Assembly: GCA_023663685.1 (NCBI GenBank)
Contig: JAMPHB010000001.1
Location: 1-41,665, forward strand
Direction of reading: 5' to 3'
DNA: 41,665 nt
Source of the DNA: Blautia sp.
GTDB taxonomy: Bacteria > Bacillota > Clostridia > Lachnospirales > Lachnospiraceae
Each line of letters starts with the position of its first letter. Positions within the stretch are counted from its first letter, which is position 1. The position numbers and the translations under genes are program-made. Shown piece after piece: positions 1 through 33,370 of the stretch. The notes beneath the pieces are model-generated. The model saw only the letters and a list, made by a program, of their open reading frames with translations, was not told the DNA's origin and searched no databases.

Positions 1-173
1 AGGCGACCTCAGCACTCGATAACGAGACGGAAGAGGCAATTATGCGCTCGATTCACGCGCTGCATGGGAAAAAGACAATGATCATTATTGCGCACCGGCT
101 GACAACGATTGAGGGCTGCGATATCGTGTACAGGGTGGAAGATGGGAGGATTGTGAAAGAGGAGAGCTTATGA
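1..173 (+). CDS. ABC exporter ATP-binding subunit, C-terminal fragment
   Basis: Only the last 57 codons are in the window; the gene enters from the left. The fragment begins at ATSALD, the D-loop just after Walker B, and carries the H-loop as IIIAHRLTTI, followed by a short tail ending VKEESL. The spacing D-loop to H-loop and the AHRLTT form are typical of the nucleotide-binding domain of type IV exporters (MsbA/LmrA-like half or full transporters with a fused membrane domain). Substrate cannot be told from this piece. Nothing suggests damage to the end of the gene. Confidence 0.9.
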   Translation, partial: ATSALDNETEEAIMRSIHALHGKKTMIIIAHRLTTIEGCDIVYRVEDGRIVKEESL

Positions 174-294
174 GGAAATGATTTTGGCAATGTAATTTTG
201 AAAGAGCCACTTGAAATACAAGCGGCTCTGGTGTATAATCTGCTCAGAAGTGATCGGACATGAGTCCGATTGCCCTCAGTAATAAAACACTTAG

Positions 295-341
295 AATAAG
301 CATCCTACACTTTGGTCGGTAGAGGATGCTTATTTCTTTTT
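295..341 (+). terminator. Rho-independent terminator
   Basis: A perfect 12-bp stem (AATAAGCATCCT at 295-306 with its complement at 323-334) closes a 16-base loop and is followed on the plus strand by TCTTTTTAT. It could end the ABC exporter transcript. Confidence 0.75.
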
Positions 342-400
342 ATAATGATTGTCTATGTAAGACAAAAGTGCAAGTAACACTGTTCGGAAATACTGATAAA

Positions 401-427
401 TAGGGGGGCACAGTCTCAGCCCCCCTA
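401..427 (-). terminator. Hairpin, possible minus-strand terminator
   Basis: Perfect 9-bp stem TAGGGGGGC (401-409) with GCCCCCCTA (419-427) and a 9-base loop. Read on the minus strand it lies 44 bases past the end of the broken nuclease gene and is followed by a T-rich but interrupted run (TTTATCAGTATTTCC). A terminator is the simplest reading, though the U tract is poor. Confidence 0.4.
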
Positions 428-470
428 ATTCTGCATACTTCCCTCATCTGTTACATCCTCTCAAATTGTT

Positions 471-1212
471 TTACAGTTTTTCTGTATACCGTATTCTGTC
501 AGAATCTGAAATTTTTAATGCATCCATAGCTTGTTCGGCAGACAGCTTCATTGTTTCCATCAGATTTTTAATATTTTGCAATAGCGTATTTTCTATAGCC
601 TCTTTGGCAGCTTTTTTAGCAGCTTCATCTCTCATATCTTCCATGCTCTTACACATTATGTCCACCCCTTTCGGATTTTCTTTTAAATACTTTGTGCGCT
701 CTGCCAACAAACCAAAATTCATATCGGCAGCATTTGTACAGTTAAAATCATGCATCAGTTTTCCCAATTCAGATTCACCGCGATATTCGCCATTGACGTA
801 TAAAATATGCTCCCCGTCTCCGAATTCATTTCCAGTTGTCCGATTCATTCGTTCAATGAGGTAAAACGGCTCGCCTTTTCCATAAAAATCTTTTTCTGTA
901 ATAAAAATAGTATATGTGTCTGGTAGCTCTTTGGATTTCCAAGTCATACTTTTTCCCAGCAGAATCCGTTCCATATGCATCCAGACAGATAGAACGTGCC
1001 CCTGCCAGCCTTTTCATATCCTTCTGCGTCTCGCATTTTGTGATAACCAAATCTTGTTTGCCTGTAATAATCCGTAGCACCAGTTCCGCTAACGGAATAT
1101 TATCTTTAAACAGGCAACGCATAAAATCATCGTCTATTGGGCGAAAATCATGCAGCCGCTGCAAATCCTCCTGCCGCTCACGTTCTTTTATCTGCTGTTG
1201 TGTTTCGTTCAC
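471..1212 (-). pseudogene. PD-(D/E)XK nuclease family transposase (Rpn-type), broken
   Basis: The N-terminal part (853-1212, GTG start with GAAGG upstream) reads the family's usual opening: RPIDDDFMRCLF, then LVLRIITGK, then LDAYGTDSAGKKYDLEIQ, which includes the catalytic D...ExQ pattern. After EIQRA the frame is lost. The rest of the family continues in another frame from KELPDTYTIFITEKD through GDGEHILYVNGEYR and LGKLMHDFNC to the coiled C-terminus ending at 471. Family members normally have about 20-25 residues (the R-x-R-x-x-HS segment) between EIQR and ELPDTY; these are missing here. So this is a deletion plus frame loss, not a simple one-base slip. The CAAAGAGCT at the junction can be read both as the end of EIQRA and the start of KEL, which suggests deletion between short repeats. 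Rpn/PDDEXK_2 proteins are nucleases linked to recombination and phage defence. Non-functional as it stands. Confidence 0.8.
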
Positions 1213-1240
1213 TTGTCATGCCTTCTTTCAAATTAGAACT

Positions 1241-1295
1241 TATCTGTCATTATTATAATCGAAAAGTATCTAAAACTCAATCAGAAAAAACGGAA
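1241..1295 (+). repeat. Copy 1 of a dispersed leader-like repeat
   Basis: This stretch (TATCTG, TATTATAATC, then an A-rich tract with CAATCAGAAAAA) matches 2721-2775 in the same order and spacing, with roughly three quarters of positions alike by eye. It includes a TATAAT that could be a -10 box, but no good -35 is visible. It lies upstream of the intact nuclease gene and just behind the start of the broken one. Confidence 0.5.
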
Positions 1296-1297
1296 GA

Positions 1298-1598
1298 ATG
1301 CTCCTTTTCATCATGCGCGTAATGCAGGGAGATGTAGGAACGACATACAATCTGCCTGCCAGTCTGCCGGGCTTACTGAATCTGCAGGAGGAGCAGGTGC
1401 TGTCCGATGATTTTTATGCTGGATGGCTCCATATGGGACAATTTGATAAGCATATAGAAGAGGCGAACCGTTGCATTATGGCGCAACTTTTAAGTGCGGA
1501 TTGATTTTGAAGGCATTTCAGGTTATAATGAACTTGAGGTCATACACCTTTTGGGAATGGCTTTTCAGTTTTGCCAGCGGTACAAAAGGAGGAGACCT
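1298..1598 (+). pseudogene. Possible small frame-broken gene, unrecognised
   Basis: A 68-codon frame at 1298-1504 encodes a plausible soluble sequence (DVGTTYNLPASLPGLL, then DDFYAGWLHMGQFDKHIEE). Its last residues run straight into a second frame starting near 1494 (IDFEGISGYNELEVIHLLG, then FQFCQRYKRRR) that stays open into the next gene. The two halves read like one polypeptide split by a one-base change near 1500. No family is recognised. No strong ribosome site precedes 1298, so this may be non-coding spacer. The call is tentative. Confidence 0.25.
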
Positions 1599-2591
1599 AT
1601 GGATACAGAAATAAAAAATGCGGTAAGTGCGGCGGATGAGGCTGCCCAATATGACGAGAGGGCAAAACGCCTGTTGGGAAACAAAATCATTCTGGCGCAT
1701 ATTTTGGTAAAGACAGTCGATGAATTTCGGGGAATGAATCCGAATGATGTGGTACCTTATATTGAAAAAGATCCTTTTATCAGCACGGTTCCGGTAGAGC
1801 CGGGGCTGACCAATACCGAAAAGGAAGAGGCCGGACACAGAGTGGTCGGACTGAACACGGAAAATGCCGAAATCAACGAGGGGCTAATCCGGTTTGACAT
1901 TATTTTTTATGTGCGCATGAAGGATGGGATTTCGCAGGTCATCGTCAATGTGGAAGCACAGAAGGACGAGCCGACAAACTACCATATATTGAACCGGGCA
2001 GTGTTCTATGTAAGCCGCCTTGTTTCCTCACAGAAGGAAAGGGATTTTGTCAGGACGGATTATGATGACATAAAGCGCGTTTTCTCCATCTGGATATGCA
2101 TGAACATGGACGAAAACAGCATGGCTTATGTGCATCTGGCAAAAGATGATTTACTTGGCTCCTATTCGTGGAAAGGCAGGCTCGATCTGTTAAATATCGT
2201 CCTGATAGGTATAGCAGATCAGCTCCCGGAGCATGATGATACATATGAGCTGCATCGCCTGCTGAGTGCGCTGTTGTCAATGGAACTGTCTGTGGATGAA
2301 AAATTGGGAATTATGGAAACGGAATACAGTATTGTGGTAAACGATGGAATGAGAGAGGAAGTGAGCGCCATGTGTAACTTGTCGCAGGGGATCCGGGAGA
2401 AAGGGATAGCTGAAGGCCGGGAAAAAGGAATAGCCGAAGGCTGGGAAAAAGGCGGAGTAGAGAGAGAAGAAAAAATTATCCTGAATATGTACAAGAACAA
2501 TTTTGCACTTGAACAGATTGCGTTAGCAACAAATAAAAGTGTGGAAGAAGTCAGTGATATCATCAGGCAGGGAGAGCCCGTACTGGTCTAA
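1599..2591 (+). CDS. PD-(D/E)XK nuclease family transposase (Rpn-type), intact
   Basis: 330 aa from an ATG with a strong AAAGGAGGAG site 5-10 bases upstream; the frame is open further left but has no such site. The N-terminal half carries the nuclease fold: GLIRFDIIFYVR gives the catalytic Asp and VIVNVEAQKD the ExQ form of the (D/E)xK motif. The middle contains the family's FSIWICMN strand and helical region. The C-terminus has 8-residue repeats (REKGIAEG-like) and then EQIALATNKSVEEVSDII, a small helix-turn-helix-like end found in many members. Such proteins are called transposases in databases, but known Rpn proteins are DNA endonucleases, with toxic antiphage activity reported for some. 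It has its own terminator at 2619. It sits beside a broken relative on the other strand, at the edge of a defence-rich region. Confidence 0.85.
   Translation: MDTEIKNAVSAADEAAQYDERAKRLLGNKIILAHILVKTVDEFRGMNPNDVVPYIEKDPFISTVPVEPGLTNTEKEEAGHRVVGLNTENAEINEGLIRFDIIFYVRMKDGISQVIVNVEAQKDEPTNYHILNRAVFYVSRLVSSQKERDFVRTDYDDIKRVFSIWICMNMDENSMAYVHLAKDDLLGSYSWKGRLDLLNIVLIGIADQLPEHDDTYELHRLLSALLSMELSVDEKLGIMETEYSIVVNDGMREEVSAMCNLSQGIREKGIAEGREKGIAEGWEKGGVEREEKIILNMYKNNFALEQIALATNKSVEEVSDIIRQGEPVLV
2394..2441 (+). repeat. 24-bp tandem repeat inside the nuclease gene
   Basis: Two 24-base units (2394-2417 and 2418-2441), both of the form CGGGAnAAAGGnATAGCnGAAGGC, followed by the start of a third. Each codes for eight residues of the type REKGIAEG. 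Because the unit is a multiple of three, copy-number change would keep the frame. Confidence 0.85.
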
Positions 2592-2618
2592 CTAAAGTGA
2601 GTTATAACCGATACAGAT

Positions 2619-2662
2619 AAGCAGTGAATAAGTTTTGTAAAAAACGGTTCACTGCTTTTTTC
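2619..2662 (+). terminator. Rho-independent terminator
   Basis: Perfect 10-bp stem AAGCAGTGAA (2619-2628) with TTCACTGCTT (2648-2657), followed by a run of T. It ends the intact nuclease gene 27 bases after its stop. Confidence 0.85.
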
Positions 2663-2720
2663 ATGGAAAGGTAAGCCTATACGAATTGATGCTTACGGAT
2701 TAGAGATATATTTTAAAATT

Positions 2721-2775
2721 TATCTGCTGCTATTATAATCAAAATGCACCTGAAACACAATCGGAAAAATCGAGA
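2721..2775 (+). repeat. Copy 2 of a dispersed leader-like repeat
   Basis: Pairs with 1241-1295 (TATCTG, TATTATAATC, ACACAATCGGAAAAA). The intact nuclease gene is bracketed by the two copies, as expected of a duplicated or inserted cassette. Confidence 0.5.
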
Positions 2776-2804
2776 GGTATTATTCCACCTGCTCAAAATG
2801 CAAA

Positions 2805-2894
2805 TTTTCTGGCGAAAATATGAAAAAATATGGAGCTAAAACAGTCCTATTAGACGTTAAAATTCGGGTACAAAAAATATTTTCAGCCAGAAAA
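2805..2894. repeat. Spaced inverted repeat upstream of SIR2 gene 1
   Basis: TTTTCTGGCGAAAATAT at 2805-2821 is complemented by ATATTTTCAGCCAGAAAA at 2877-2894 with one extra base, leaving about 55 bases between arms. It lies just ahead of the putative promoter and has no U tract, so it is more likely an operator, structured leader or element end than a terminator. Confidence 0.5.
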
Positions 2895-2914
2895 CGACTA
2901 TTTTTGCCAAGCCC

Positions 2915-2943
2915 TTGCAATCAAAATTGATTTGTTGTATTGT
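2915..2943 (+). promoter_or_regulatory. Putative sigma-A promoter for SIR2 gene 1
   Basis: TTGCAA (2915-2920) and TATTGT (2938-2943) are 17 bases apart. Transcription would start near 2950, leaving a leader of about 70 bases. The match is moderate. Confidence 0.4.
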
Positions 2944-3021
2944 AGATATTATAGAGGGAATTTGTCGGCCAAAAAAGAGCGGCGTTTACAGGGAAGCAAA
3001 GGCTTGTTTAGGGGGAGAAAA

Positions 3022-5442
3022 ATGATTCCAGTAGTAGAATTCAGCGATATAAGCATGGAACTAAAGGATCATATTGAGAAGAGGCGAATTATTCCGGTTA
3101 TAGGTGCGGGATTTACCGCTGGCTGCAAGGCAAAGCAAGGGGATGTGCCGTCTGGGGATGAGATGAAGGGCGACATGCTGAGAGACATTATAAAGCAGGA
3201 GCCGGATGAGGATTTCAGCGAGCTGGAGACCGCAGATATTAAGAAGGTAGCGTCGATATATAAAAAAATTGTTCCGAAAAATGAAAGAATACAGTATTTG
3301 CAGGACCGCTTTACAAGAGTGAAGCTTCCACAGAACCGTAAGGACTTTATCAATATTGAGTGGAATTATATTTATACTTTTAATCTTGATACGGCTATTG
3401 AAGAGAATGGCGATCACAAGAAGAAAATTATTGCCAATAGACCTTTGACAGAGAAAACTATCGAGCAGATGGAAAATTGTGTGTTCAAGGTTCACGGCGA
3501 TGTTGAGGATTATATTACATACGATGACAGTAAGTGTTACATAATGGATGCGAAGGAATATATTGACAGCATCAAGCGAAACGAAGCCATTCTGACGAAA
3601 ATGCAGCAGGATTTTCAGAACGAAAATTTGCTGTTTGTCGGATGCAGCCTGAGAGACGAACTGGATATTTTGTCTCTGGATTTCAGCTATTCGCAAAAGC
3701 ATGGTATATCTCGATATTATATTACGGATCAGCGGCCGAACAGAGTGAGAGATCTTGAATTAGCCGAGTATGGAATTACGCAGGTCGTTCTGGTAGATGA
3801 CTATGAGGAATTCTATGATGCGATGAACATTATGCGTGGAGACGCGCATATAGAACAGAGTGAGACTAAGAATTATATTGTTAGTGGAACGGTTATAGAG
3901 CCGAATACCTTTGAAAAGGACAAGGATTTCCTATATTTTGGAAGGAAGCTGGTTTCCAATCAGGGAAAGCTTGCGCTTCCGGGATTTTTTGTAGAGAGGA
4001 AGCTGGTCGGCGATTTAGTAAGGGAAATGAAGAGTTTTTGCGTTCAGATCGTATATGGCGCAAGGGTATCAGGCAAGACATATATTTTAGCTTCCCTGGC
4101 GGATAAAATCAAGAACCGCGATGTATATTTTCTGGACAGCCGGTCATTGATTAACGAGCAGACATTTTTTGAGTTTCTGGAGATGAAAAATGCGGTCATT
4201 TGTATTGACAGTAATGCCGTGCGAAAGGATTTGATTTTTCATATAGACCAGTATCTGGGGAGCTTTGAAAAAAATAATACAAATATAGTTCTGACTATTA
4301 ACAAGTCGGATAAGGATGTGATATATGTTTTCTCCGGCAAGGAGGAGGATCATATTAAGCTGTATGAGCTGGATTCCAGGTTTTCAAAGGAGGAAATTGA
4401 AGAGCTGAATAGCCGGTTATCCGTTGCCTCCATAAACAAATTTAATGCCGATAAGACTTTGATTGATAACCTTATTTCGGTTTCCGGCGAAAAGAAAAAC
4501 AGCATTTTAAAAAAATACAAGCTTAAGAAAGATCCGAGTATTGCATATGTTGAGGCGTTGATTCTGCTGGCGATTAAGGAAAGAATTTCCACGCAGGAGA
4601 TGCAGCAGTATGGACTTACCTCTGAATTCCGGGTAATTTTGAACTCTTACACACCGATGATAGATGAGGGGTTAGTGGACGTTGGAGAGAAAACCTCGTT
4701 TGACGGTTCGAATTATAAGATGTTTACAAATGCGAAGTACTGGCTTCTGGATATGCTTGGCGAGCTTGCGGGAAACAATGCATATTACAAAAAGATTCTG
4801 GAGGCATATTACAATCTGGTGGATTCCTACATAATCATGCACCCGGATTCCAAGTATAGAAATCTGGAAGATTATATCAGGTTTGATGTGCTCAATGAGA
4901 TTTTCCGAAATTCTTCTGTAGATGGAAACCGTAGAATAATTGTCGGGATATATGACGAGTTAAACACATTGCTGGCAAGTGAACCGCAGTTTTACCACCA
5001 GCGTGCAAAATGCCATTTGTGGTACACGAGGACAAATAAAAGAGAGGAGGAGGTTAGAGATGCGTTAAGATATGCCAAAAAGGCGCTGCATGACTATAAG
5101 CTGGACAAACATGATGAAAATAACGTTAAGGTACGTTCGACCATCCGGCATATGAATGTTACCGTGGCAATCGCGCAAGCCCGGCTCGCGAGTGCATTGA
5201 ACTACGCGGATAAGGAGCAGTTCAAGGATTGTATTGGCGATTTGTATCAGATTGTTGTGACAGACGGAGAAGCGATTGCCTTTGAGAATCGCAGAGAACG
5301 CAAGCAGGAAATGGGTGATGTGGATGCATTTATCACATATTGCCAGACAAACGATTTGAGTGCCATGAATTTGTCCGCGCCAGAACGCAAAAAAATAGAT
5401 ATCATGTGCAGCGAGAATATGCGGCGGAAAATGCGGGTGTAA
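3022..5442 (+). CDS. SIR2-domain plus P-loop NTPase protein, probable antiphage NADase
   Basis: 806 aa from an ATG preceded by GGGGGAGAA; the frame is open 30 codons further left, but without a site. The SIR2-like domain spans about 20-260: PVIGAG (26-30 region), TFNLD (119-123), the catalytic-type His in VHGD (157-160) and FVGCSLRDE (205-213). There is no CxxC zinc ribbon, which in this superfamily points to NAD hydrolysis rather than deacetylation. A P-loop follows, GARVSGKT at 346-353, with a hydrophobic strand ending in ICIDS as a Walker B candidate, then a helical C-terminal half of about 400 residues. This order (SIR2 effector, STAND-like NTPase, C-terminal sensor) and length resemble Avs5-type proteins, which sense a phage protein and deplete NAD. 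The C-terminal sensor is not recognised, so the exact subtype is inference. The gene is visibly A/T-richer than the core genes, in line with transfer. It stands alone, between a nuclease gene and a recombinase. Confidence 0.8.
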   Translation: MIPVVEFSDISMELKDHIEKRRIIPVIGAGFTAGCKAKQGDVPSGDEMKGDMLRDIIKQEPDEDFSELETADIKKVASIYKKIVPKNERIQYLQDRFTRVKLPQNRKDFINIEWNYIYTFNLDTAIEENGDHKKKIIANRPLTEKTIEQMENCVFKVHGDVEDYITYDDSKCYIMDAKEYIDSIKRNEAILTKMQQDFQNENLLFVGCSLRDELDILSLDFSYSQKHGISRYYITDQRPNRVRDLELAEYGITQVVLVDDYEEFYDAMNIMRGDAHIEQSETKNYIVSGTVIEPNTFEKDKDFLYFGRKLVSNQGKLALPGFFVERKLVGDLVREMKSFCVQIVYGARVSGKTYILASLADKIKNRDVYFLDSRSLINEQTFFEFLEMKNAVICIDSNAVRKDLIFHIDQYLGSFEKNNTNIVLTINKSDKDVIYVFSGKEEDHIKLYELDSRFSKEEIEELNSRLSVASINKFNADKTLIDNLISVSGEKKNSILKKYKLKKDPSIAYVEALILLAIKERISTQEMQQYGLTSEFRVILNSYTPMIDEGLVDVGEKTSFDGSNYKMFTNAKYWLLDMLGELAGNNAYYKKILEAYYNLVDSYIIMHPDSKYRNLEDYIRFDVLNEIFRNSSVDGNRRIIVGIYDELNTLLASEPQFYHQRAKCHLWYTRTNKREEEVRDALRYAKKALHDYKLDKHDENNVKVRSTIRHMNVTVAIAQARLASALNYADKEQFKDCIGDLYQIVVTDGEAIAFENRRERKQEMGDVDAFITYCQTNDLSAMNLSAPERKKIDIMCSENMRRKMRV

Positions 5443-5580
5443 AGGTTGCAGATGGGGGAGCGGTTGGAGGAGTAAAAAAGCTGGCATATTTCTTTGAGAT
5501 TAGGAAAGTATGCGAGCCGAAGGGAATTGTGGGAAGTCGTAGGCAGGCAATAGGAAGTTTGGGGTATGTGGTAAAAACTC

Positions 5581-5605
5581 GATGGATAATTGAAAGTTAT
5601 CCATC
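5581..5605. repeat. Palindrome with 7-base centre, possible recombinase site
   Basis: Perfect 9-bp arms GATGGATAA (5581-5589) and TTATCCATC (5597-5605) flank TTGAAAG. Arms of 9-12 bp around a 6-8 base centre are the usual core layout for tyrosine recombinases, and such a recombinase gene ends 45 bases away. No U tract follows on either strand. Confidence 0.5.
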
Positions 5606-5639
5606 ATCCCCCTGCAAATCCTTCAATCTGCAGGGGGAT
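5606..5639. repeat. Second palindrome abutting the first
   Basis: Perfect 11-bp arms ATCCCCCTGCA (5606-5616) and TGCAGGGGGAT (5629-5639) with a 12-base centre, directly adjoining the palindrome at 5581-5605. It lies between the convergent ends of SIR2 gene 1 and the recombinase. It could be a two-way terminator, but neither strand has a run of T after the stem. Confidence 0.5.
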
Positions 5640-5649
5640 CCCTCACCTG

Positions 5650-6570
5650 CTATATCTCAAAATTATTCCTCGGATGCTTTGCGGCAAGTATATCTCTTTG
5701 CTTTGCAATCGACACATGGGTATATATTTCTGTGACGTTGATTGAGCTATGCCCCAGCATTTCCTGAATATAGCGAATGTCAACGTCCTGCTCCAGCAGG
5801 CTGGTCGCGAAGGTATGGCGGAACATATGAGGGGTGATATGTAAGTCTATACCGGCAAGGGCTGAGTATTTTTTGATCATTCTGCGGACGGCCTGATCGC
5901 TTAAAGCCTGCCCCGCCTGATTTACAAAAAAGTGGCTGCAGCCTTCCAGCTCGGCAGAAAAAATCTTCTGGTATTCTTTTAATGTCTGTATTGTGTCGGC
6001 GTTGCAAATCTGTATGCGTCTTTCTTTATTGCCCTTACCGTAAATGAGAATAGTTCCGTCGTACAGATTGATATCCTTTTTATCGAGTGAACACAGTTCC
6101 GAGATTCGCATTCCGGTTGTAAATAAGACTTCCGCCACAGCTGCGTCCCGCAGGGCATTTTTCCTTTGATATTCCGTCCCGGCGGAATCGCGCTGCTTAT
6201 AGATTGTGCGCAAAAACAGCTCGACGGTATGCAGGGGAATTATCTTGGGGAGGATAACCGGCTCACGGAAGTGCAACTGCAGTTTGTTAAATGGGTTTTG
6301 TATTAAGATATCTCTGTATTCAGAATAGTGAAAGAGCGCTTTTGATGAAGCGATTTTTCGCTTTACTGTCTTGGGCTTGTATTGCTGGTGAAGCTTTGCG
6401 ATATAGGCCTCCAGCATTCGTGGCGTTATTTCTGTTATTGCTGTTTGGGAAAAATGCAATGAAAATTGTTTTAAATCGATGCGATAGGCTTTGATTGTTT
6501 TCTCATCAAGCCTTTTCTGAATCTGACAGTATTCCAGATAATTGTTGATCAATTCTTCCATGCGGTTCAT
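5650..6570 (-). CDS. Tyrosine recombinase/integrase, XerC/D-like
   Basis: 306 aa from an ATG at 6570 with AAAGGAG six bases upstream; an upstream ATG at 6612 lacks a site. The N-terminal SAM-like core-binding domain (about 1-95) is typical: LINNYLEYCQIQKRLDEKT, then a YIAKL helix. The catalytic domain holds the full set: Arg in TGMRISEL, Lys in YGKGNKERR, HMFRHTFA, the His of LGHSS and the Tyr of TEIYTHV. It is a stand-alone gene, convergent with SIR2 gene 1 and divergent from SIR2 gene 2, without excisionase, phage or conjugation genes. So it may mobilise or invert something local rather than belong to a prophage. Two palindromes lie just downstream. It differs from the usual chromosomal XerC/XerD role only by context; a duty in dimer resolution cannot be excluded. 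Confidence 0.9.
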   Translation of the reverse strand: MNRMEELINNYLEYCQIQKRLDEKTIKAYRIDLKQFSLHFSQTAITEITPRMLEAYIAKLHQQYKPKTVKRKIASSKALFHYSEYRDILIQNPFNKLQLHFREPVILPKIIPLHTVELFLRTIYKQRDSAGTEYQRKNALRDAAVAEVLFTTGMRISELCSLDKKDINLYDGTILIYGKGNKERRIQICNADTIQTLKEYQKIFSAELEGCSHFFVNQAGQALSDQAVRRMIKKYSALAGIDLHITPHMFRHTFATSLLEQDVDIRYIQEMLGHSSINVTEIYTHVSIAKQRDILAAKHPRNNFEI

Positions 6571-6638
6571 AATGCTCTCCTTTGTTATCGTTTTTTCAAA
6601 TATATCGTACATGAAACGGACGGAAGAAATGGTTTTCC

Positions 6639-6667
6639 TTGATTTTCCGGCATTTCATAAGTAAAAT
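6639..6667 (+). promoter_or_regulatory. Sigma-A promoter for SIR2 gene 2 (and rsmI)
   Basis: TTGATT (6639-6644) and TAAAAT (6662-6667) with a 17-base spacer, giving a start near 6675 and a leader of about 47 bases. It lies in the 151-base gap shared with the divergent recombinase gene. Confidence 0.5.
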
Positions 6668-6721
6668 AAAAAAGAAGCCATACGTTTCAGCCAGAATTTC
6701 AGAACCGGAAGGGAAACTAAG

Positions 6722-9700
6722 ATGTCCATAGACGCAAGATATTTGAACAAGCTAAGAGATGCATACCTGAATAACAATCTGATCGTGTTTGTCGGAAGCG
6801 GGCTGTCCGTGCCTCTGCAGATGCCATCATGGGGAAAGCTGATTGCGGATCTGGCGGATGCGGAAGGATTTTCCGGCGGCAAGAGGCGGGAGATTCAGGA
6901 AGCGCTGGACAGCTATGCATATATGGAGGCAATCCGGCTGTTGATGGAGGAGACGGCATGGGACGAGGCGGAGATCCAGAGAAGGGTGGCGGAGTATTTT
7001 GGCGAGGCAAAGCGCGTCTGCGACCGTCTTGCAGACAACAATTACAAGGATCTTGCGGACATGGCGCTTGCAAGATTTTTTACAACGAACTATGATGAGT
7101 TTATCCATGATATAGCGGGCGGCGAAAGGATTTATTTTGACGAGGCGCAGAGGCGGATCATTTTGAACCAGTTCGACCAGCCGGAATACCGGAAGACAGC
7201 AATTCCATTGCATGGCGATATCAGCAGGCCGGAGGAGATTATTTTTACGGAGCAGTCCTATAAGAAGCTCTATGAAAACGAGGATTTTACTGATTTTTTT
7301 GAGCGGATTCGGTGCGGAAAGACTTTTTTGTTTATCGGATTTTCCTTTGACGATGCTTATTTTCAGACGCTTTTTCAAAAAGTGGTCGGCGGGTTTCAGA
7401 TGGAGCATTATATCCTTTTTTCGGAGGACAAGCGGGCGGATATCCATGTGCAGGAAAACTGCAGGCGGTACAGAGTGCGTGCGCTTTACTATGATGCAGC
7501 TGCGGGGCATGTGGAGGCAATCCGGGAGGTGCTGGAGGACATAACCAGAGTGATTCGGACGCCTGCCCATGAAATAGAGGTGCTTCCTAAAAAGGAACCG
7601 GCTGTTCTGCCGGAGGCGTTTCAGGAGCTCTACGAAAAATGCGGGCGGGCAGTGGAGAATGAGAGGCTGGCGGAGCTTAAGGAGCTGGCGGATACCATTC
7701 GGAGTATGTCGGGCTTTGGGGAGCTGGACGCAAAGCACAGACAGCGGACAGGCATCTATTATCTGTGGTATTACAGCAATCTGCAGGAGCATACGAAGGC
7801 AGAAGAGATTATGTACACCATGGACGCCGACCCTGAATTATACCCTCTGCGGAGTCATGCCGCCGTAATGTACGGGCAGATTTTGTGGAACGCCAGACAG
7901 TGGACGCAGGCGCTCGCCTTTCTCAACGGCATTGCGAAGGAGACGAAAATATTGCGGCTGCTCAGGGACGTGATTCTTGTCTCCCAGCGTTTTCTGCCGT
8001 CGGCATACGAAAAGCAGGGTTTTATTCCGGTGTATGAAGAAACGGAGAGGACAGATGTGCAAAAGGCGGAGTTTGCGGCTGCCTATCAGGAGCTTAAGGA
8101 AAAATATGTGGAGGATTCCTTTGCCCTTAAGGATTTAGAGGAATATGAGGATCGTGATATGCAAAAGCTCGCCTATCAGTGGCTGGGGATTGTGGCGGGG
8201 CAGGTATTCCATGAGCACAGGGACGCGGTGGAGTATCTGAGCCGCGCTCTTATGGTGGAGGAGAGCCGGGCGTTGTATGAGGAGCTTGCCCTGAACGATC
8301 TGGCCATTGGGGAGGCACGGACGAAATACAGAAAAGACGCGAAGCAGTATGAGTTTGACCGGAGGGCGCTGGCGGATGCGAAGCGTTGCTTTGCCTACGT
8401 TTTTGCGGCGGATGATAAGGACTTTCTTCTCTCTGCCTGCAGGCGTGTCGGTTCTGCCTATCTGCAGGTGCTCTTTGATTCCAGATGCTTCTATGAATAT
8501 GAGCAGTTTTATGAGCGGGCTGGGGAGTTTCTGCCGGAAAATTACCATAAATATATCCAGAAGGCGCAGGTGGATGCAGAGTATATGGGGGAGATTCCGG
8601 AGGAGATCCAGGCACATCTGACAGAGGATGACAGGCTTTGGCTGGAGCTGTCCCGCAGGGAATCTGTTTCCTCTATGCTGAATCAGCCGGATACAGAGAA
8701 GCAGAAGGTATTTGGGACTGTGACGGAGGAGATTGAGGACAGATTCGGCGAATATGCGCATATGCCGGAGCATTTTCAGGTGATGTACCGGTTTGCCCTG
8801 TTTAGCGCGGGACGATATGCAGAGTTTGCGGGTCTGGCAGACAGCGGGGACGAGGCGGAGGCCTGCTATCTGCCGGAGTGCCGCGGTGATGTAAACGGGG
8901 GGCAGGCGGCGTTTGAAAAACTGTTCCGCGGGCACCCGGATATGTCCTCTATGAGAGAGCTGGTCAATTTTTACAAACGGCATGGGAAAAAAGCGGAAGC
9001 CTGCGATCTGTTTGAGCGTATTCTGGCGGAGGCCTACGGTTTTATAGGCGATCGGGCAGATGTGCTGCGAACCTATATTTCGACAGCGCTGAACGGGTGG
9101 GGGGATACCGGGACGGCGCTTCGGGCATTTATTGCGCACAAGGACATTTTTGACAGCAGCGACGAACAGCTGGAGCTGGAGGAGATGCTTCTGCCGATGG
9201 TGATGGACTATAGCGACTGGCAGAGGCGGATCGAGTTTAGCCGGTATATGCTGACGATTTCCCCGAAGCTCATAGCGCAACAGTTTTACCGCTACATATT
9301 CCATCTGTATATAGCAAACATGAAATACCGGGAGGCGGGAAAATGTCTGGATGAGATGCGCGCCGCCGGGGTAGAGGTGCCGGAGGAATGGGAGCATGTG
9401 CAGGCGATTATGATGCGGCCGCAGAAGAGCAGACGCTACAGCAGGGCGCCGCAGCATTACGCGGCGGGAGCGATTGCCGGGATAAAACGGTCGGTGAATC
9501 AGCTGCCGTGGTTTGGGCTCTATTGCTTTGGGCGGGAAAATGGAGAGGTTCTGATTCCCATGACCACTATGATTATGCTGTTTGCAGTGGGACGGCAGAA
9601 AGAGCTTGCGCATTTTTCTAAGGTGTATGTTACATATGCGGGGCTGCTGCATCTGCAGAGCGACCTCGTTTGCCGGGAAACGTCCTTATACAGGCAGATA

Positions 9701-9877
9701 CTTGAGACGCTTGCGGGGCTGGCAAATCTGGAGCTGGCGGCCTGCTCCATGGAGGGATATGTGGAAGGGGAGAAAAAATATGGGAGGAGATACCCTGAAA
9801 AAATCCAGTACTTTCAGTTTTTGTCAGAGCACCGGGAGGTGACGGGCATTTGGGGAATCAGTCAGAAGGGAGTGTGA
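6722..9877 (+). CDS. SIR2-domain protein with long helical-repeat tail, probable antiphage NADase
   Basis: 1051 aa from an ATG with GGAAGGGAA upstream. The SIR2-like domain is at about 15-270: FVGSGLS (23-29), TTNYDE (121-126), LHGD (163-166) and FIGFSFDD (204-211), all NAD-site motifs. No zinc cysteines are present, so NAD cleavage is more likely than deacetylation. The remaining 780 residues are almost all amphipathic helices with TPR-like spacing (for example ALAFLNGIAKET, KKAEACDLFERILAEAYG). No P-loop was found, unlike the other SIR2 protein in this window. This architecture resembles defence-associated sirtuins (DSR-type), in which the helical tail senses phage proteins and the SIR2 head depletes NAD; exact family membership is inference. 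Base use is close to the core genes on the right. The stop is 3 bases before the rsmI start, so the two are probably co-transcribed and coupled. Confidence 0.85.
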   Translation: MSIDARYLNKLRDAYLNNNLIVFVGSGLSVPLQMPSWGKLIADLADAEGFSGGKRREIQEALDSYAYMEAIRLLMEETAWDEAEIQRRVAEYFGEAKRVCDRLADNNYKDLADMALARFFTTNYDEFIHDIAGGERIYFDEAQRRIILNQFDQPEYRKTAIPLHGDISRPEEIIFTEQSYKKLYENEDFTDFFERIRCGKTFLFIGFSFDDAYFQTLFQKVVGGFQMEHYILFSEDKRADIHVQENCRRYRVRALYYDAAAGHVEAIREVLEDITRVIRTPAHEIEVLPKKEPAVLPEAFQELYEKCGRAVENERLAELKELADTIRSMSGFGELDAKHRQRTGIYYLWYYSNLQEHTKAEEIMYTMDADPELYPLRSHAAVMYGQILWNARQWTQALAFLNGIAKETKILRLLRDVILVSQRFLPSAYEKQGFIPVYEETERTDVQKAEFAAAYQELKEKYVEDSFALKDLEEYEDRDMQKLAYQWLGIVAGQVFHEHRDAVEYLSRALMVEESRALYEELALNDLAIGEARTKYRKDAKQYEFDRRALADAKRCFAYVFAADDKDFLLSACRRVGSAYLQVLFDSRCFYEYEQFYERAGEFLPENYHKYIQKAQVDAEYMGEIPEEIQAHLTEDDRLWLELSRRESVSSMLNQPDTEKQKVFGTVTEEIEDRFGEYAHMPEHFQVMYRFALFSAGRYAEFAGLADSGDEAEACYLPECRGDVNGGQAAFEKLFRGHPDMSSMRELVNFYKRHGKKAEACDLFERILAEAYGFIGDRADVLRTYISTALNGWGDTGTALRAFIAHKDIFDSSDEQLELEEMLLPMVMDYSDWQRRIEFSRYMLTISPKLIAQQFYRYIFHLYIANMKYREAGKCLDEMRAAGVEVPEEWEHVQAIMMRPQKSRRYSRAPQHYAAGAIAGIKRSVNQLPWFGLYCFGRENGEVLIPMTTMIMLFAVGRQKELAHFSKVYVTYAGLLHLQSDLVCRETSLYRQILETLAGLANLELAACSMEGYVEGEKKYGRRYPEKIQYFQFLSEHREVTGIWGISQKGV

Positions 9878-9880
9878 GCC

Positions 9881-10735
9881 ATGGAAAAAGGAAGATTATA
9901 TTTGTGCGCCACGCCGATCGGCAATCTGGAGGATATCACCTGCCGGGTATTGCGCACATTGAAAGAGGTGGATCTCATTGCGGCGGAGGACACCCGCAAT
10001 TCCATCCGTCTGCTGAATCACTTTGAGATTCGGACGCCCATGACCAGCTATCACGAGCATAATAAGATTGAGAAGGCGTACCGGCTTGTGGAGAAAATGC
10101 GGGAGGGGAAAAATATTGCGCTGATCACAGATGCCGGGACGCCGGGAATCTCCGATCCGGGAGAGGAGCTGGTGCGCATCTGCTATGAGGAGGGCATCGA
10201 GGTGACGTCCCTTCCCGGGGCGGCGGCCTGCGTTACCGCGCTTACGGTGTCGGGACTTCCCACCCGGCGTTTTGCCTTTGAGGCCTTTCTTCCAAGGGAC
10301 AAAAAGGAGCGGCGGGCGGTGCTCGCGGAACTTGCGCAGGAGACGCGGACGATCATCCTCTACGAGGCGCCCCACCATCTGGTGGCGACGCTCACGGAGC
10401 TTTGCGAGGTTCTGGGCAAAGAGCGCAGACTCACGATCTGCCGGGAGCTGACCAAGCGGTATGAGGAGAAAATGCAGACGACCCTTGCGGACAGTCTGCA
10501 CTATTATGAGGGGCAGGAGCCCCGCGGGGAATATGTGCTTGTGATTGAGGGGAAATCCATAGCGCAGTGCAAAAAGGAGCAGCAGGCCGCATGGGAGGCG
10601 TTAAGCCTTGCGGAGCACATGGCCCGCTACGAGTCGCAGGGGATCGACCGCAGGGAGGCCATGAAGCTGGTGGCAAAAGACCGGGGCGTCAGCAAACGCG
10701 ACATTTATCAGGAGCTGCTGCAGGCAGACCGCTAA
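9881..10735 (+). CDS. rsmI: 16S rRNA (cytidine-1402-2'-O)-methyltransferase
   Basis: 284 aa, normal length. RsmI adds the 2'-O-methyl group to C1402 of 16S rRNA in the decoding centre using SAM. Diagnostic stretches of this tetrapyrrole-methylase-fold family are present: LYLCATPIGNLEDI at the start, AEDTRNS, the TDAGTPGISDPG loop near residue 85, and SLPGAAACVTAL. The ribosome site (GAAGGGAG) lies within the end of the SIR2 gene 3 bases upstream, which suggests translational coupling. The stop overlaps the convergent DUF885 stop by two bases. Confidence 0.95.
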   Translation: MEKGRLYLCATPIGNLEDITCRVLRTLKEVDLIAAEDTRNSIRLLNHFEIRTPMTSYHEHNKIEKAYRLVEKMREGKNIALITDAGTPGISDPGEELVRICYEEGIEVTSLPGAAACVTALTVSGLPTRRFAFEAFLPRDKKERRAVLAELAQETRTIILYEAPHHLVATLTELCEVLGKERRLTICRELTKRYEEKMQTTLADSLHYYEGQEPRGEYVLVIEGKSIAQCKKEQQAAWEALSLAEHMARYESQGIDRREAMKLVAKDRGVSKRDIYQELLQADR

Positions 10736-13801: not shown

Positions 13802-16735
13802 ATGGGAAAGAGCGGCGATTCCTACAGTGAGAATGCGGCGTTGTTCATGGATTCATATCAGCAGCTTATTGACCTGCTCGAGTACAGGGATCACCCTCTT
13901 TACCAGCCGGATACGTCCGGGGTTTACGACTTTGTCTACTCCGTGACCGTGGAGTCGGAGGTCTGTCCCCTTGTCGGAATCAGGCAGTTTGCTTACATAG
14001 ATGAGACGGACGTCACGAAGCAGCATCTGCTGCACTGGAACCAGAACGATATCCCTATTTCCATACTGGTTTTCCCGGATGAGATCAGGGTATATAATAA
14101 CTTTACATGTAAAAAAGAAAAAGCGCTCCTGTATAACAGCAGGAGTAAACGGGGCAGGCAGAGTCACGCGGAGATATTGCAGGACTTAAAGGCCTCCCAT
14201 ATCACGACAAGGGCGGTCTGGGAGCGTCTGGAAAAATTGTCCGCTTCCAGTGACAGAGTAGACAGAAGGCTGCTGCTGAATTTAAGGACGACCGTGCTGG
14301 AGGCGCATCAGGAATATGGGATGCAGCTGGAGGCGGCATACAATTTCATGTCTCTGTGTATTTTTGTAAAATACCTGGAGGACAGAGAGATGCTCTCCTC
14401 CGCCTTTTTCGGCCGGTGGGGAGTCAGAAATTATACAGAATTTCTTGCGAAAGCGGCCTCCGTGGAGCTGGACGAATTTTTTAAAGTCCTCAAGGACAGA
14501 TTCAACGGAGACTTGTTTGCGCTGTCAGCGGACGAGCTTCCAAATGCCGCGCAGAAGGAGGTTTTTCACCGTTTTTTCAGGGGCGACGATATTATGGAAA
14601 ACGGGTGGAGCCAGCTGACCCTGTTTCCATACAATTTTTCCGTCATACCGATTGAGCTGATCAGCAATATATACGAGACGTTTCTCTCCGTGGACGATAA
14701 CGCAAGGAATGAGAAGAAGGCGTCGAAAACGGGGACGTACTATACCCCGCACTATCTGGCGGATTTTATGGTGCAGCAGTGCTTTCTGCCCTATAGGGAC
14801 AAACGGCGGATTCCGAGCGTGCTGGATCCGGCGTGCGGCTCCGGAGTGTTTCTGGTGGATTCGTTTAAGCAGCAGATACAGATGCTAAAAGAAGATAGGA
14901 CGAAGCTGGATGCGCAGGAGCTTGGCGAGCTTTTAGAGAATTCTATATACGGCGTGGACAAGAATCCAAACGCGCTGCGCATCACCTGCTTTAGCCTCTA
15001 TATCGCATTGCTGGAGGAGCTGAGTCCGAAGGATATTATGGAGAATGCATTTCATTTTCCGAATCTGATCGGCCGCAGCCTGATCGACAGCAACTTTTTT
15101 TCCGCGGAAGTCAGCGCCCTGATCCAGAAAAACTTTGACATTATTATTGGCAATCCGCCGTGGAAAAGTATGCCGGATTCTGACCATATGCCCTATTGCA
15201 GAGAGAGGGGGATTCCCATTGCGGATGCGCAGATTGCGCAGGCGTTTATGTGCAGGGTGGAGGATTTTGCGGATGCGCATACGCAGATATGCTTTCTGCT
15301 GACGAACTCGATTTTTACGAATAAGAACAGCAAAGATTTTTTGTCGCATGTACTGGAAAATTACTGTATTTCCAGTATCACGAATCTGGAAGCTGTCAGG
15401 GGGCAGCTTTTTGCCCATGCACAGTATCCCTGCTCGATTGTGACTTATCGCTGCGCGCAGAGGGAGGATTATCAGATTCATTATCAGGCTTTCCGTCCAA
15501 ACGGAATGTTCCGGCTGCTTCACAAGTTTATCTGTGATAAGAATGAGAGTGTGACGCTCAGTAAAAATAAGGTGCTGGGCAGGGAATATATCTGGACGGT
15601 TCTGGCCTACGGCGATGAATTTGACGTGGGCTGTGTGGAGACGCTGCGCCAGTTTCCGCCCCTGAAGGAAGCCGTGAAGGGAAAGCTGGAGTTTGTGCAG
15701 GGGTATATCACCGCCTCAAAGGGAAAGAGACACCCGGACTTTTACGGTTACCGGGGAGGCTCGCTGGCGGGCGTCTTTATGCCCTATGGCGTGGATTATG
15801 AGAATATCCCAAAGGTCGCGGAGGATACGCTTTATGACAGGCCGAGACCGCTTGAAATGTATACATGCCCCCACAAGCTGCTGGTCAAGCGGACATACAG
15901 TGAGGCGTGCTGGGGAGCCGCCTATGTGCAGGAGCCGTTAGTGTTTTGCAATGATTTTTCTACCTTCAATGATTATACCGGCGAACATGTGGGTCTGCTC
16001 CGGTATCTGGAGGGAATAATCAACTCGGTGGTTTTCCGTTATTATGGATTTTATGTATCGAAGATTAAGGCGGCAGGCAAGCCGGAGATGGTGAAGGAGG
16101 ATGTTTTTGATTTTCCGCTGCCCCCATATGATGGGCACAATGCGCTTATTGCAAAGGTGACTGACCTCGTGGCAAGGCTGGAACAGGCAGTGCATGAGGA
16201 GTGGAGGCAGAAAAGCCACAGCCCGCTGTTTATGGATGACCATGAAAAAGAAAGGCTGCAAAAGGAGCTGGACGAATGTATCTATAAGCTGTACGAGCTG
16301 GACGATTTCCAGATTTCCGTGATTCAGGAGGGCGTCGGGAGGTTTCACAGAGAGGAAGAGACGGTCTGTGCCGGTGATGCCGATTATCAGACGTATGCGA
16401 AGTATATATGTGATTATTTCAATTACTATATGGGAGGGATGTCCGGTCATTTGTGGAAAGCGCAGGTGACAGAGGGAAGCCTTTACACGACGGTCGGTTT
16501 TTCCTTTGCGCAGGAGGAGGAGCATATCGCTCCCGATTTACTGGGTATGGCAGGACTTGAGGAAATCAATGGGAAGCTGCTGGTACAGAGGAGAATTCTG
16601 GAGTATGGGAAGAGCGGCTTTTGCGTCATACAAAGCAGGGAGAAGAGGAACTGGACACTGGGAAAGGCGAAGAAAATGGCGGCCGCAATGACGCAGGAAA
16701 TTATGGGTATGGGAGGAAAAAGGCATGATCAATAG
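13802..16735 (+). CDS. N6-adenine DNA methyltransferase, type IIG-like
   Basis: 977 aa, ATG with GGGAGGATGAAAGG just upstream. The methylase core is clear: GTYYTPHYLADFMV (311-324), SAM-binding motif I LDPACGSGVFLVDSF (341-355), YGVDKNPNALRI (383-394), and catalytic motif IV IIIGNPPW (447-454). The region after about 650 (VQGYITASKGKRHPDFYGY, PHKLLVKRTY, FPLPP) looks like a type I/IIG target-recognition domain. The first 300 residues include IPISILVFPDEIRVYNNF, similar in feel to the nuclease-like N-terminal fold of restriction enzymes, but no D...ExK set is seen there. Cleavage, if any, must then come from elsewhere, perhaps the overlapping next gene. Function inferred: methylates adenine in a specific DNA site as part of restriction-modification or a related defence. 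Not recognised as BREX PglX or type ISP. Confidence 0.85.
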   Translation: MGKSGDSYSENAALFMDSYQQLIDLLEYRDHPLYQPDTSGVYDFVYSVTVESEVCPLVGIRQFAYIDETDVTKQHLLHWNQNDIPISILVFPDEIRVYNNFTCKKEKALLYNSRSKRGRQSHAEILQDLKASHITTRAVWERLEKLSASSDRVDRRLLLNLRTTVLEAHQEYGMQLEAAYNFMSLCIFVKYLEDREMLSSAFFGRWGVRNYTEFLAKAASVELDEFFKVLKDRFNGDLFALSADELPNAAQKEVFHRFFRGDDIMENGWSQLTLFPYNFSVIPIELISNIYETFLSVDDNARNEKKASKTGTYYTPHYLADFMVQQCFLPYRDKRRIPSVLDPACGSGVFLVDSFKQQIQMLKEDRTKLDAQELGELLENSIYGVDKNPNALRITCFSLYIALLEELSPKDIMENAFHFPNLIGRSLIDSNFFSAEVSALIQKNFDIIIGNPPWKSMPDSDHMPYCRERGIPIADAQIAQAFMCRVEDFADAHTQICFLLTNSIFTNKNSKDFLSHVLENYCISSITNLEAVRGQLFAHAQYPCSIVTYRCAQREDYQIHYQAFRPNGMFRLLHKFICDKNESVTLSKNKVLGREYIWTVLAYGDEFDVGCVETLRQFPPLKEAVKGKLEFVQGYITASKGKRHPDFYGYRGGSLAGVFMPYGVDYENIPKVAEDTLYDRPRPLEMYTCPHKLLVKRTYSEACWGAAYVQEPLVFCNDFSTFNDYTGEHVGLLRYLEGIINSVVFRYYGFYVSKIKAAGKPEMVKEDVFDFPLPPYDGHNALIAKVTDLVARLEQAVHEEWRQKSHSPLFMDDHEKERLQKELDECIYKLYELDDFQISVIQEGVGRFHREEETVCAGDADYQTYAKYICDYFNYYMGGMSGHLWKAQVTEGSLYTTVGFSFAQEEEHIAPDLLGMAGLEEINGKLLVQRRILEYGKSGFCVIQSREKRNWTLGKAKKMAAAMTQEIMGMGGKRHDQ

Positions 16736-20371: not shown

Positions 20372-20689
20372 GCACGGAAAATGCATAAGAGACGGAAATC
20401 CTTGCTGCAATTGCGGGCGGCGGAGGGCGCGAAGTGAATTTCAAAGCTGTCTTTGTGGCGGAAAATTGGATTTTCTTAGTGTTCTGTACAAGAATCAGCG
20501 ATTGCGGGACATGGACGTCCCGTAAAGCCCGCACTGAGCCACGACGGCGAATTGCGGGCGGTCGCGTCGGAGAATGCAGTCTTTTCAGAACATTTAGAAA
20601 ATCCATTTGACAGAGCAGACAGCGTGAATTCACTTCGCGCCCTCCGCCGCCCGCAATTGCAGCAAGGATTTCTGCACTCATTTCCGTGC
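20372..20689. repeat. 318-bp palindromic element (MITE-like or structured RNA)
   Basis: A perfect 45-bp inverted repeat (20396-20440 with 20627-20671) forms the core. It extends outward, imperfectly, to GCACGGAAA (20372) and TTTCCGTGC (20689), and inward through related segments around GGATTTTCTTAGTGTTCTG and its partner at 20586-20604. The centre has its own small hairpin (CGGGAC...GTCCCG, about 20504-20522). There is no convincing coding sequence. It occupies the space between the divergent MerR and Sua5 genes. The layout fits a non-autonomous transposable element or a repetitive extragenic palindrome; no clear target-site duplication was seen. The rest of the 20276-20777 gap holds only the Sua5 promoter. 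Confidence 0.8.
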
Positions 20690-20706
20690 GCAAAACGAAT
20701 CCTGAA

Positions 20707-31429: not shown

Positions 31430-32569
31430 GTGAAAGGGCGTATATTGCGAATCGGTGCAGGTTTTGCGGCAGTTTTGCTGCTTTTGGCGTTTGCCTGTGT
31501 GTGGCTGGGCGGGCAAAAGCAGCCGGAGGAAAGTCTGGCGGATCAGATTGTGGCGGTCAATGAGATTGAGCAGCTTGCCCGGGCAGGGGAAGCGGAGGAG
31601 GCCGCACAAAAGGCCGCTGTTTTAAAAATGGAGCTGGAAGGTGGTACGGGAAACGGGGCTGTCTCTGTCTGGTTATTTTGCGGAGTCTCTCTTGTGTTTC
31701 TGGCGGCGGTGCTGGGATATGTATATGCGGCAGTTTTGCGCCCATTTGACAAGCTGAAAACATTTGCGGAGGAGATTGCGGGGGGAAATCTTGATCTGGC
31801 GCTCGACTATGAGCGCGCCAATTATTTCGGAGCTTTTACATGGGCCTTTGACAGTATGCGCAGGGAGATTACGAGGGCAAGAGCCTGCGAGCGGGAGGCC
31901 ATTGAGAACAATAAGACGATTATCGCCACGCTTTCCCACGATATCAAGACGCCGATTGCCTCGATCCGGGCCTACGCGGAAGGGCTGGAGGCGAATCTGG
32001 ACAGCACGCCGGAGAAGCGGCAGCGCTATGTCTCTGTCCTAATGAGAAAATGTGATGAAGTATCCCGGCTGACGAACGATTTGTTTCTGCACTCTCTGGC
32101 GGATCTCGATAAGCTGCAGCTTAATCTGGAGGAGTTTGAGCTTGTCGCATGGGCAAAAAGTGCCGTGGGTGAGCTTGCCGGGGATAAGGAGTGCGTCCGC
32201 TTTTGTGAGCAGGAGCTTTCCGCGAGAGTTTTTGCAGACCCGAACCGTCTGCTTCAGGTGCTGGAGAATCTCATCAGCAATGCAGGGAAGTACGCAAAAA
32301 GCCGCATCGATGTGGGAATCCGGCACGGCGGAGCGGACGTGGAGCTCTATGTCCGCGACTACGGCGCAGGAATACCGGATGAGGATATGCCTTTTATTTT
32401 TGACAGGTTTTACCGGGGAAAAAACAGCGGCGGGGAGCAGGGCTCCGGGCTGGGGCTGTATATTGTCCGCTATATCATGGAGAAGATGGGCGGCACGGTC
32501 ACACTCTGTAACCGCCCGGACGGGCTGGAGGCGGTCGTCAGCCTTCCGGTTCTGGAGGATACATTCTAG
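31430..32569 (+). CDS. Sensor histidine kinase
   Basis: 379 aa from GTG after GGGAGGTAGCAGA. Two membrane helices (about 10-28 and 79-101) enclose an outer segment of only 50 residues, followed by a HAMP-like linker, the dimerisation helix with phospho-acceptor His170 in ATLSHDIKTPIASI, and an ATPase domain (N box LENLISNAGKYAK, G1 DYGAGIPDEDMPFIFDRFYRG, G2 GSGLGLYIV). The short outer segment suggests sensing at the membrane or through a partner, as with kinases tied to peptide-antibiotic ABC transporters. It pairs with the regulator 47 bases upstream. Confidence 0.93.
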   Translation: MKGRILRIGAGFAAVLLLLAFACVWLGGQKQPEESLADQIVAVNEIEQLARAGEAEEAAQKAAVLKMELEGGTGNGAVSVWLFCGVSLVFLAAVLGYVYAAVLRPFDKLKTFAEEIAGGNLDLALDYERANYFGAFTWAFDSMRREITRARACEREAIENNKTIIATLSHDIKTPIASIRAYAEGLEANLDSTPEKRQRYVSVLMRKCDEVSRLTNDLFLHSLADLDKLQLNLEEFELVAWAKSAVGELAGDKECVRFCEQELSARVFADPNRLLQVLENLISNAGKYAKSRIDVGIRHGGADVELYVRDYGAGIPDEDMPFIFDRFYRGKNSGGEQGSGLGLYIVRYIMEKMGGTVTLCNRPDGLEAVVSLPVLEDTF

Positions 32570-32578
32570 GGATATTTC

Positions 32579-33164: not shown

Positions 33165-33370
33165 ATCATTCTCCTTATTTAGAATTGAGTTTGTAGCATG
33201 GCACGATTTAGTTTTAATATCTACTGTAACATAACGATTGGTAATTGGAATGAAAATATTGTAACTTAGTTTATAAAAGGAGTCAATGCACCTTAAGGAC
33301 TTCTTAATATCTTTTTCGGTAGAATTGGGCTAACATATAAGAGAGCATATACGGAGGAAAGGAAATAAGG
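33165..33370. promoter_or_regulatory. Divergent control region between toxin pair and ABC transporter
   Basis: A/T-rich 206-base gap. TGTAAC occurs twice on the plus strand (33225-33230, 33260-33265), 35 bases apart, close to whole helical turns, and could be a paired regulator site. A -10-like TATAAG lies near 33335. No gene is supported. The operator idea is tentative. Confidence 0.35.

Follow-up and report, generated by a model that had tools for sequence, protein, structure and literature searches.

Integrons combine a tyrosine recombinase beside its own site with exchangeable gene cassettes in direct arrays, and the known Thoeris genes are laid out as an operon. Invertible hsdS loci have been described for type I restriction systems of Streptococcus that carry a PsrA-type tyrosine recombinase (PMC7096588, PMC4948785), and recombinases beside defence genes are common, their role being stated as unknown (PMC12529663). 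Here we analyse a 41,665-nucleotide stretch of a Blautia genome (the window), in which a lone XerC/XerD-like tyrosine recombinase of 320 aa (5650-6612, minus strand) lies between two SIR2 genes, together with a family of its relatives drawn mostly from Lachnospiraceae. From the arrangement of their sequences, these enzymes are probably dedicated recombinases for the inversion and exchange of gene cassettes, acting at a site 3' of their own gene and at an inverted copy of it. The first-pass annotation of the window had proposed that the recombinase drives gene exchange at a defence hotspot; that idea was right in kind, and inversion, absent from it, is the reading added here.

Family members resemble integrons, as these are generally understood, in that a tyrosine recombinase stands next to its own site and to exchangeable cassettes, but the sites form inverted pairs around a unit of usually two genes, not direct arrays. 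Three cassettes (L080, L082 and L174) hold, as in Thoeris, a SIR2-STALD protein and a TIR protein; unlike the Thoeris operon, the family cassettes have convergent genes between inverted sites. The hsdS loci likewise place a tyrosine recombinase next to inverted repeats, and the family would share with them the flipping of defence-related DNA and the resulting diversity in a population, but in the hsdS loci it is parts of one specificity gene that recombine, whereas here whole unrelated gene pairs are enclosed by the sites and cassettes interchange as wholes. Short inverted repeats, a tyrosine recombinase and clonal variation are also features of RecV and other site-specific switches (PMC5903667). 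The Clostridioides difficile switches in that account are 154-230 bp long and lie mostly between genes, and neither 'phage' nor 'convergent' appears in its text. No description of such recombinase-bounded cassettes was recognised among the matches listed from the open-licence PMC literature, bioRxiv not included.

Inverted site pairs beside the recombinases

The sample comprised 101 loci: the best 80 of 569 public stretches encoding relatives of the recombinase, 20 loci from the genus, and the window. Two known duplicates, L085 and L086, were removed manually, and identity within any pair of the 101 recombinase genes does not exceed 98.8%. Source titles of the relatives name mostly Lachnospiraceae, with a few others, including one Alistipes and one Thermoflexaceae; close relatives are missing from many of the 62 genomes that made up the genus comparison set. 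When the sequence 3' of these recombinases was lined up, a 19-bp core site emerged, GGATAAT-N5-ATTATCC, consisting of 7-bp inverted arms around a 5-nucleotide spacer, which in most loci lies about 10 to 240 bp after the recombinase gene. A near site (12 of 14 arm matches or better, at most 450 bp from the gene) was found in 53 of the 99 loci that have at least 40 bp available 3' of the recombinase gene.

Those 53 loci contain 106 other sites (11 of 14 arm matches or better), and 24 of these, in 22 loci, have a spacer that is the exact reverse complement of the near-site spacer, giving 22 of 53 loci the layout of an inversion locus; none of the 106 matches the near-site spacer on the same strand. 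The 82 sites that match neither strand probably include many chance occurrences at the 11/14 threshold, and in a control comparison of spacers across loci only 43 of 5512 comparisons matched (0.8%). Paired sites are 2-7 kb apart, the exception being L090 (0.26 kb). Overlap homology is expected between the two inverted crossover sites of a single tyrosine recombinase, and complementary inverted spacers fit that expectation; we infer that the recombinase itself catalyses the reaction. A stringent core pattern found 28 sites in the 62 genus genomes, versus 3 for the reversed control pattern, and at least 10 of those 28 are no more than 60 bp from where a contig stops. Among the 80 public loci, 22 have a contig end no farther than 300 bp from the recombinase 3' end and 5 have one that close to its 5' end, an excess as expected from mixed orientations in the samples; other repeats could do likewise. 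Two site pairs per cassette, one nested in the other at a distance of some 45-100 bp and differing from it in spacer, were observed in L082 (where the inner spacers do not match), L093, L095, L122 and L129, and may record a cassette inserted inside another.

An integrase-type direct-repeat array, first suggested by a 79-bp second copy of the recombinase 3' end in the genome nearest to the window (G031), was dropped because the recurring sites are inverted. The family does not behave as an integron either: same-strand spacers number 0 among the 106 other sites, and the integron-integrase model scores the window recombinase at 102.6 bits against a cut-off of 265. The protein exceeds the cut-offs of PF00589 (144.5 bits) and PF02899 (52.2 bits) but not those of the housekeeping models (XerC, 234.6 versus 335.15 bits; XerD, 229.5 versus 329.6 bits) or of the remaining NCBIfam models. 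R169, K193, H262, R265, H288 and Y297, which we take to be the catalytic residues, are invariant in a 16-member alignment. Phage records matching the recombinase numbered 24 at the limits used, and among the 15 listed three exceed 40% identity (66, 59 and 50%), all three being unannotated fecal fragments; the 12 matching plasmid records are all below 60% identity. A phage or plasmid origin was considered and rejected at these limits.

Content, orientation and interchange of the cassettes

Twenty-three cassettes were delimited, including L164, bounded by an 81-bp inverted repeat in place of the motif, L091, at a lower site threshold, L100, whose site lies 5' of the recombinase, and L082, whose contig has its site sequence in common with the end of recombinase contig L081. 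End genes face inward in 20 of the 23 (exceptions L084, L098 and L194); they often start 20-60 bp inside the site and often overlap or nearly touch tail to tail. A domain scan took in a subset of 49 proteins, including two from L088, a locus that lacks a far site. TIR, SIR2, STALD or Mrr domains above the Pfam cut-off were found in ten cassettes (L080, L082, L083, L086, L092, L095, L098, L102, L174 and L194), with SIR2-STAND proteins in L098 and L102; two more (L129 and L172) have an AAA domain above cut-off, and five (L126, L154, L164, L170 and L188) have TIR-like or AAA/STAND matches below it. An enzyme of small-molecule or sugar metabolism scored above cut-off in 18 of the 23.

The same partners recur, and five recurrent pair types were seen in both orientations relative to the recombinase. 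ThsA is paired with a TIR protein in L080, L082 and L174, with ThsA proximal to the recombinase in the first two and TIR in the third. In the pairs of an Mrr/AAA STAND protein with a family-2 glycosyltransferase, the STAND protein is proximal in L086 and L126, the glycosyltransferase in L083 and L164; where a CAP12-TIR-like protein accompanies a glycosyltransferase, the former is proximal in L154 and the latter in L188. ATP-grasp/radical SAM proteins occur with a pentapeptide protein, the ATP-grasp/radical SAM side being proximal in L122 and the pentapeptide protein in L187. ATP-grasp proteins with TPR/AAA partners occupy L084, L088, L093 (by eye), L170 and L194, the ATP-grasp protein being proximal in L194 (and L088) and the AAA protein in L170 (and, by eye, L093). 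A further type, an SHMT-like protein with an AAA or TPR protein, is found in L100 and L129. The ThsA/TIR cassettes agree with Thoeris in content: ThsA scores 596 bits in L080 and 335 bits in L174, the TIR protein is above cut-off in all three, and the ThsA-like protein of L082 was judged by its sequence. Of 20 cassette proteins compared with PADLOC, 10 matched (nine SIR2 or TIR-type, one weak AAA), so most pair types are not listed as defence in that 2023 library.

Interchange can be read from closely related loci. Between L095 and L102, which come from two members of the genus, identity is 98.2% across the roughly 7 kb leading to the near site and 98.8% across the 1.25 kb available past the far site, yet the interiors of the two are unrelated: a TIR/radical SAM cassette of about 3 kb in L095, a SIR2-NACHT/PLP-enzyme cassette of 7.3 kb in L102, where the recombinase is split between two frames. 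L129 and L158 (92%) diverge 5 bp past the near site, no partner having been found in L158, and L178 and L193 diverge at the near site or 38 bp before it, whereas L152 and L169, both without sites, show no such break. This site-bounded divergence implies that the DNA from one site to the other is replaced as a unit; exchange by the recombinase and homology in the flanks are not distinguishable here, because either would give the same picture. Cassette type is scattered, not clustered, on the recombinase tree (13 changes, where the least possible is 6 and the shuffled mean 14.3, with values as low in 46 of 200 shuffles; L143, L182 and L093 were labelled by similarity or by eye).

We reasoned from these observations that the recombinase would act at the core just 3' of its own gene and at the inverted copy usually 2-7 kb away, that recombination between the two inverted sites would flip the enclosed cassette, and that over longer times the stretch between the sites would be replaced as a unit. 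The cassettes usually have two facing end genes, in many cases an enzyme together with an immune-type protein (TIR, SIR2, Mrr, AAA/STAND), or else the ThsA/TIR pair of Thoeris; with such content in cassettes that would flip and be replaced, the locus would switch and renew immunity, presumably against phage. An effect of inversion on expression may also be supposed, and we advance a one-promoter switch as a hypothesis. Promoter-like scores stood out from shuffled sequence (p 0.10 or less) in 8 of 20 far flanks and 3 of 20 near flanks, but the paired comparison is not significant (p 0.13).

The Blautia window and its nearest relative

The first-pass annotation had described two SIR2 genes with NAD-site motifs and no zinc cysteines, one of them with a P-loop after its SIR2 head, around a recombinase convergent with one and divergent from the other and with no phage genes nearby; this description holds. 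Gene 1 (3022-5442, plus strand; 806 aa from ATG 3022, TTG 2932 being the other possible start) faces the recombinase, and gene 2 (6722-9877, plus strand, 1051 aa) diverges from it. Both exceed the PF13289 (SIR2_2) cut-off of 24.5 bits, at 49.5 and 79.9 bits respectively, and are the only matches to it in this 82%-complete genome. N121 and H158 of gene 1, and its loop GARVSGKT, are in register with the solved 'SIR2 family protein' 9nah, with which residues 19-688 align (E 2.9e-45); N123 and H164 of gene 2 are in register with ThsA. By eye, zinc-type cysteine pairs were not seen in either SIR2 head, and no phage structural family was matched among the subset of open reading frames scanned between 474 and 16732.

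A SIR2 domain followed by a STAND P-loop NTPase is the layout of Avs5 (AVAST type 5), and gene 1 resembles Avs5 in this Sir2-STAND layout, in having an Asn motif (TFNLD against TTNXD), in its HG variant and in its P-loop (PMC12931631). It scores 207 bits with the PADLOC Avs5 model; the NCBIfam model NF041814 covers residues 11-695 but reaches only 261.2 bits, and because this falls short of NCBI's 1000-bit cut-off we call the gene Avs5-like. Gene 2 has a SIR2 head whose closest models are PADLOC LmuA (200.9 bits) and ThsA (79.1 bits) and a long tail with weak TPR-like matches. It fails the full-length DSR model (NF041818, 18.7 bits against 1400) and matches PADLOC Dsr1 in the head only (51.5 bits); despite the LmuA match it does not form a Lamassu system in its neighbourhood, which consists of the recombinase and rsmI (LmuB was not searched genome-wide). 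Gene 2 matched no phage record at 1e-5, and among the 20 of 55 plasmid records listed only its SIR2 head was matched.

The two genes are not equivalent as cargo. Gene 2 stops 3 bases ahead of rsmI (9881-10735, plus strand; TIGR00096, 268.5 bits, cut-off 167.9), the right-hand chromosomal anchor of the locus, which was matched in 59 of the 62 genus genomes. Gene 2 lies on the 5' side of the recombinase and is shared with G031 at 97% amino acid identity; it is a 5' neighbour of the recombinase, not cassette cargo, and only gene 1 is on the exchange side. Neither gene is conserved, and a conserved gene order was rejected: of the 62 genus genomes, 1 has full-length gene 1 (6 have some match to it) and 2 have full-length gene 2 (9 have some match to it); when 397 family genomes were sampled at E 1e-20, gene 2 was found only in that of the window. 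An invertible promoter between the recombinase and gene 2 was considered and rejected, as the inverted repeats listed include none with both arms in that interval. Gene content upstream of rsmI varies among genus members (L103-L117), with a prophage-like stretch, by eye, in L112.

Between gene 1, which points at it, and the recombinase lies the window's core site (5584-5602, without strand; GGATAAT-TGAAA-GTTATCC on the plus strand), with 13 of 14 arm matches and spacer TGAAA. An inverted repeat at 5606-5639 (minus strand), between the recombinase stop and the site, forms a hairpin that has no T run in the window copy; such a hairpin was seen by eye in several loci and folded for the window and G031, and that of the window has a z of -6.07, none of 200 shuffles being equally stable. 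G031, 93-96% identical in nucleotides, shares the layout of recombinase end, hairpin and site. It is collinear with the window rightward to 38453 with two gaps, including the recombinase and gene 2, and differs leftward from the recombinase stop codon. Cargo thus varies beside the recombinase, and in the family cassettes exchange 3' of it; as for the first-pass annotation's suggestion that the recombinase drives this exchange, neither SIR2 gene was seen to have been moved by the window's own enzyme.

In G031 (L079 13774-14724) a VapC-like toxin gene (by eye, 13833-14237, minus strand) lies directly behind the recombinase, followed by the 79-bp second copy of the recombinase 3' end (82% identity), a hairpin, a core site and the contig end; the arrangement resembles the outcome of an insertion in which the end of the gene was duplicated. 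Elsewhere in the window, a 977-aa adenine methyltransferase-like protein (13802-16735), matching BREX PglX and MAD2 models below cut-off (57 bits and less), has a 977-aa open reading frame at the corresponding place in G031. Two segments are not in G031: about 300 bp with long inverted ends at 20386-20692, which looks like a small non-autonomous element, and about 740 bp at 32550-33291, which codes for a protein resembling PIN toxins (by eye) and perhaps for an antitoxin. To the left, 471-2591 holds two Rpn-type (PDDEXK_2) genes, the first broken into overlapping open reading frames (by eye) and the second under cut-offs, and a 60-nucleotide direct repeat (77%) occurs at 1233 and 2713, related stretches recurring in many genus genomes.

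Alternative readings and their bearing

Several observations weigh against a family of cassette-inverting recombinases. No near site at threshold was found in 46 of the 99 loci, and 31 of the 53 near-site loci lack an exact partner, many, not all, being cut by contig ends. The sole cassette found in two genomes (L095/L198, 78% nucleotide identity) has the same orientation in both, CAP12-type cassettes form one group on the recombinase tree, and L124 and L139 diverge just past the recombinase with a site at threshold in neither. Six of the 23 cassettes (L084, L091, L093, L100, L122 and L187) have no immune-like Pfam match, and a one-sided outside promoter is not significant (far flank higher in 12 of 20, paired p 0.13), nor was one seen at the Avs5-side flank of the window (p 0.71). 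The sites might instead serve cassette capture and exchange, with both end genes expressed either way and inversion a by-product. The scatter of cassette types on the tree, the L095/L102 pair that differs in its cassette only, and the nested pairs with different spacers (L122, L129, L093 and L095), which resemble a cassette within a cassette, all favour this, as does the expectation that ThsA and TIR of Thoeris require joint expression. Tyrosine recombinase integration, however, normally leaves direct sites, whereas no same-strand spacer match was found, and homologous recombination in the flanks would look the same as site-specific exchange; we regard capture without switching as rather unlikely. 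An ordinary defence-island neighbourhood, in which the recombinase would be what is left of a decayed integrase and the SIR2 genes would have come in separately, appears less likely again: loci without a site, the interrupted recombinases of L101 and L102 and the nearby Rpn-type elements and toxin-antitoxin genes suit it, but the window's recombinase is intact, its site is kept, and the spacer rule holds over many independent loci. Improbable, in our estimation, is recombination-gated immunity, in which the two facing halves of an immune system, ThsA and its TIR partner for example, would not be expressed together: a resting cell would express only the end gene of one flank, and a phage-triggered flip would make the second half while the first persists, arming the system. 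The family would then be a platform, run by the recombinase, on which two-part immune systems are exchanged, among them enzyme/STAND pairs so far undescribed as defence.

The window itself fits cassette inversion and exchange imperfectly. Its core, GGATAACTTTCAATTATCC in recombinase orientation, is the exact reverse of the core at the G031 contig end, GGATAATTGAAAGTTATCC, and runs opposite to that of most relatives; of 45 near sites in public loci, 1 has the same inner bases (C, A). A partner with a complementary spacer was not found in 1-5583 (sites of 10/14 or better), base 1 being where contig C11 ends. Elsewhere in the genome no exact-spacer site occurs; allowing up to 3 mismatches returns the site itself and one 2-mismatch match on contig C8, with spacer TTTGA, which is also in G031 and is probably chance. 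The window could be a living cassette with its far site beyond the contig start and Avs5 as cargo, as the contig ends 5.6 kb from the site where the L102 cassette spans 7.3 kb, and SIR2-STAND proteins are known from L098 and L102. Against this, a gene starts at the near site in 22 of 23 cassettes (all but L084), whereas the Avs5-like gene points at it, the core is flipped with rarely seen inner bases, and only the C8 match offers a partner; we consider a living cassette doubtful. Tentatively, the site may be the scar of a misaligned recombination that lost the cassette, while simple decay of the site seems unlikely, these gradings being a matter of judgement. We therefore read the window as an atypical copy, emptied or altered, with the Avs5-like gene adjoining.

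For the family as a whole, cassette inversion and exchange brings together a readable site, a testable rule (matching 5-nucleotide spacers) and interchangeable, often immune-type cassettes. If true, it would provide a concrete mechanism for immunity turnover and clonal variation in gut bacteria; new two-gene systems could be found by searching between paired sites, and the recurrent enzyme partners (glycosyltransferase, ATP-grasp, SHMT-like and radical SAM proteins) would become candidate immune components.

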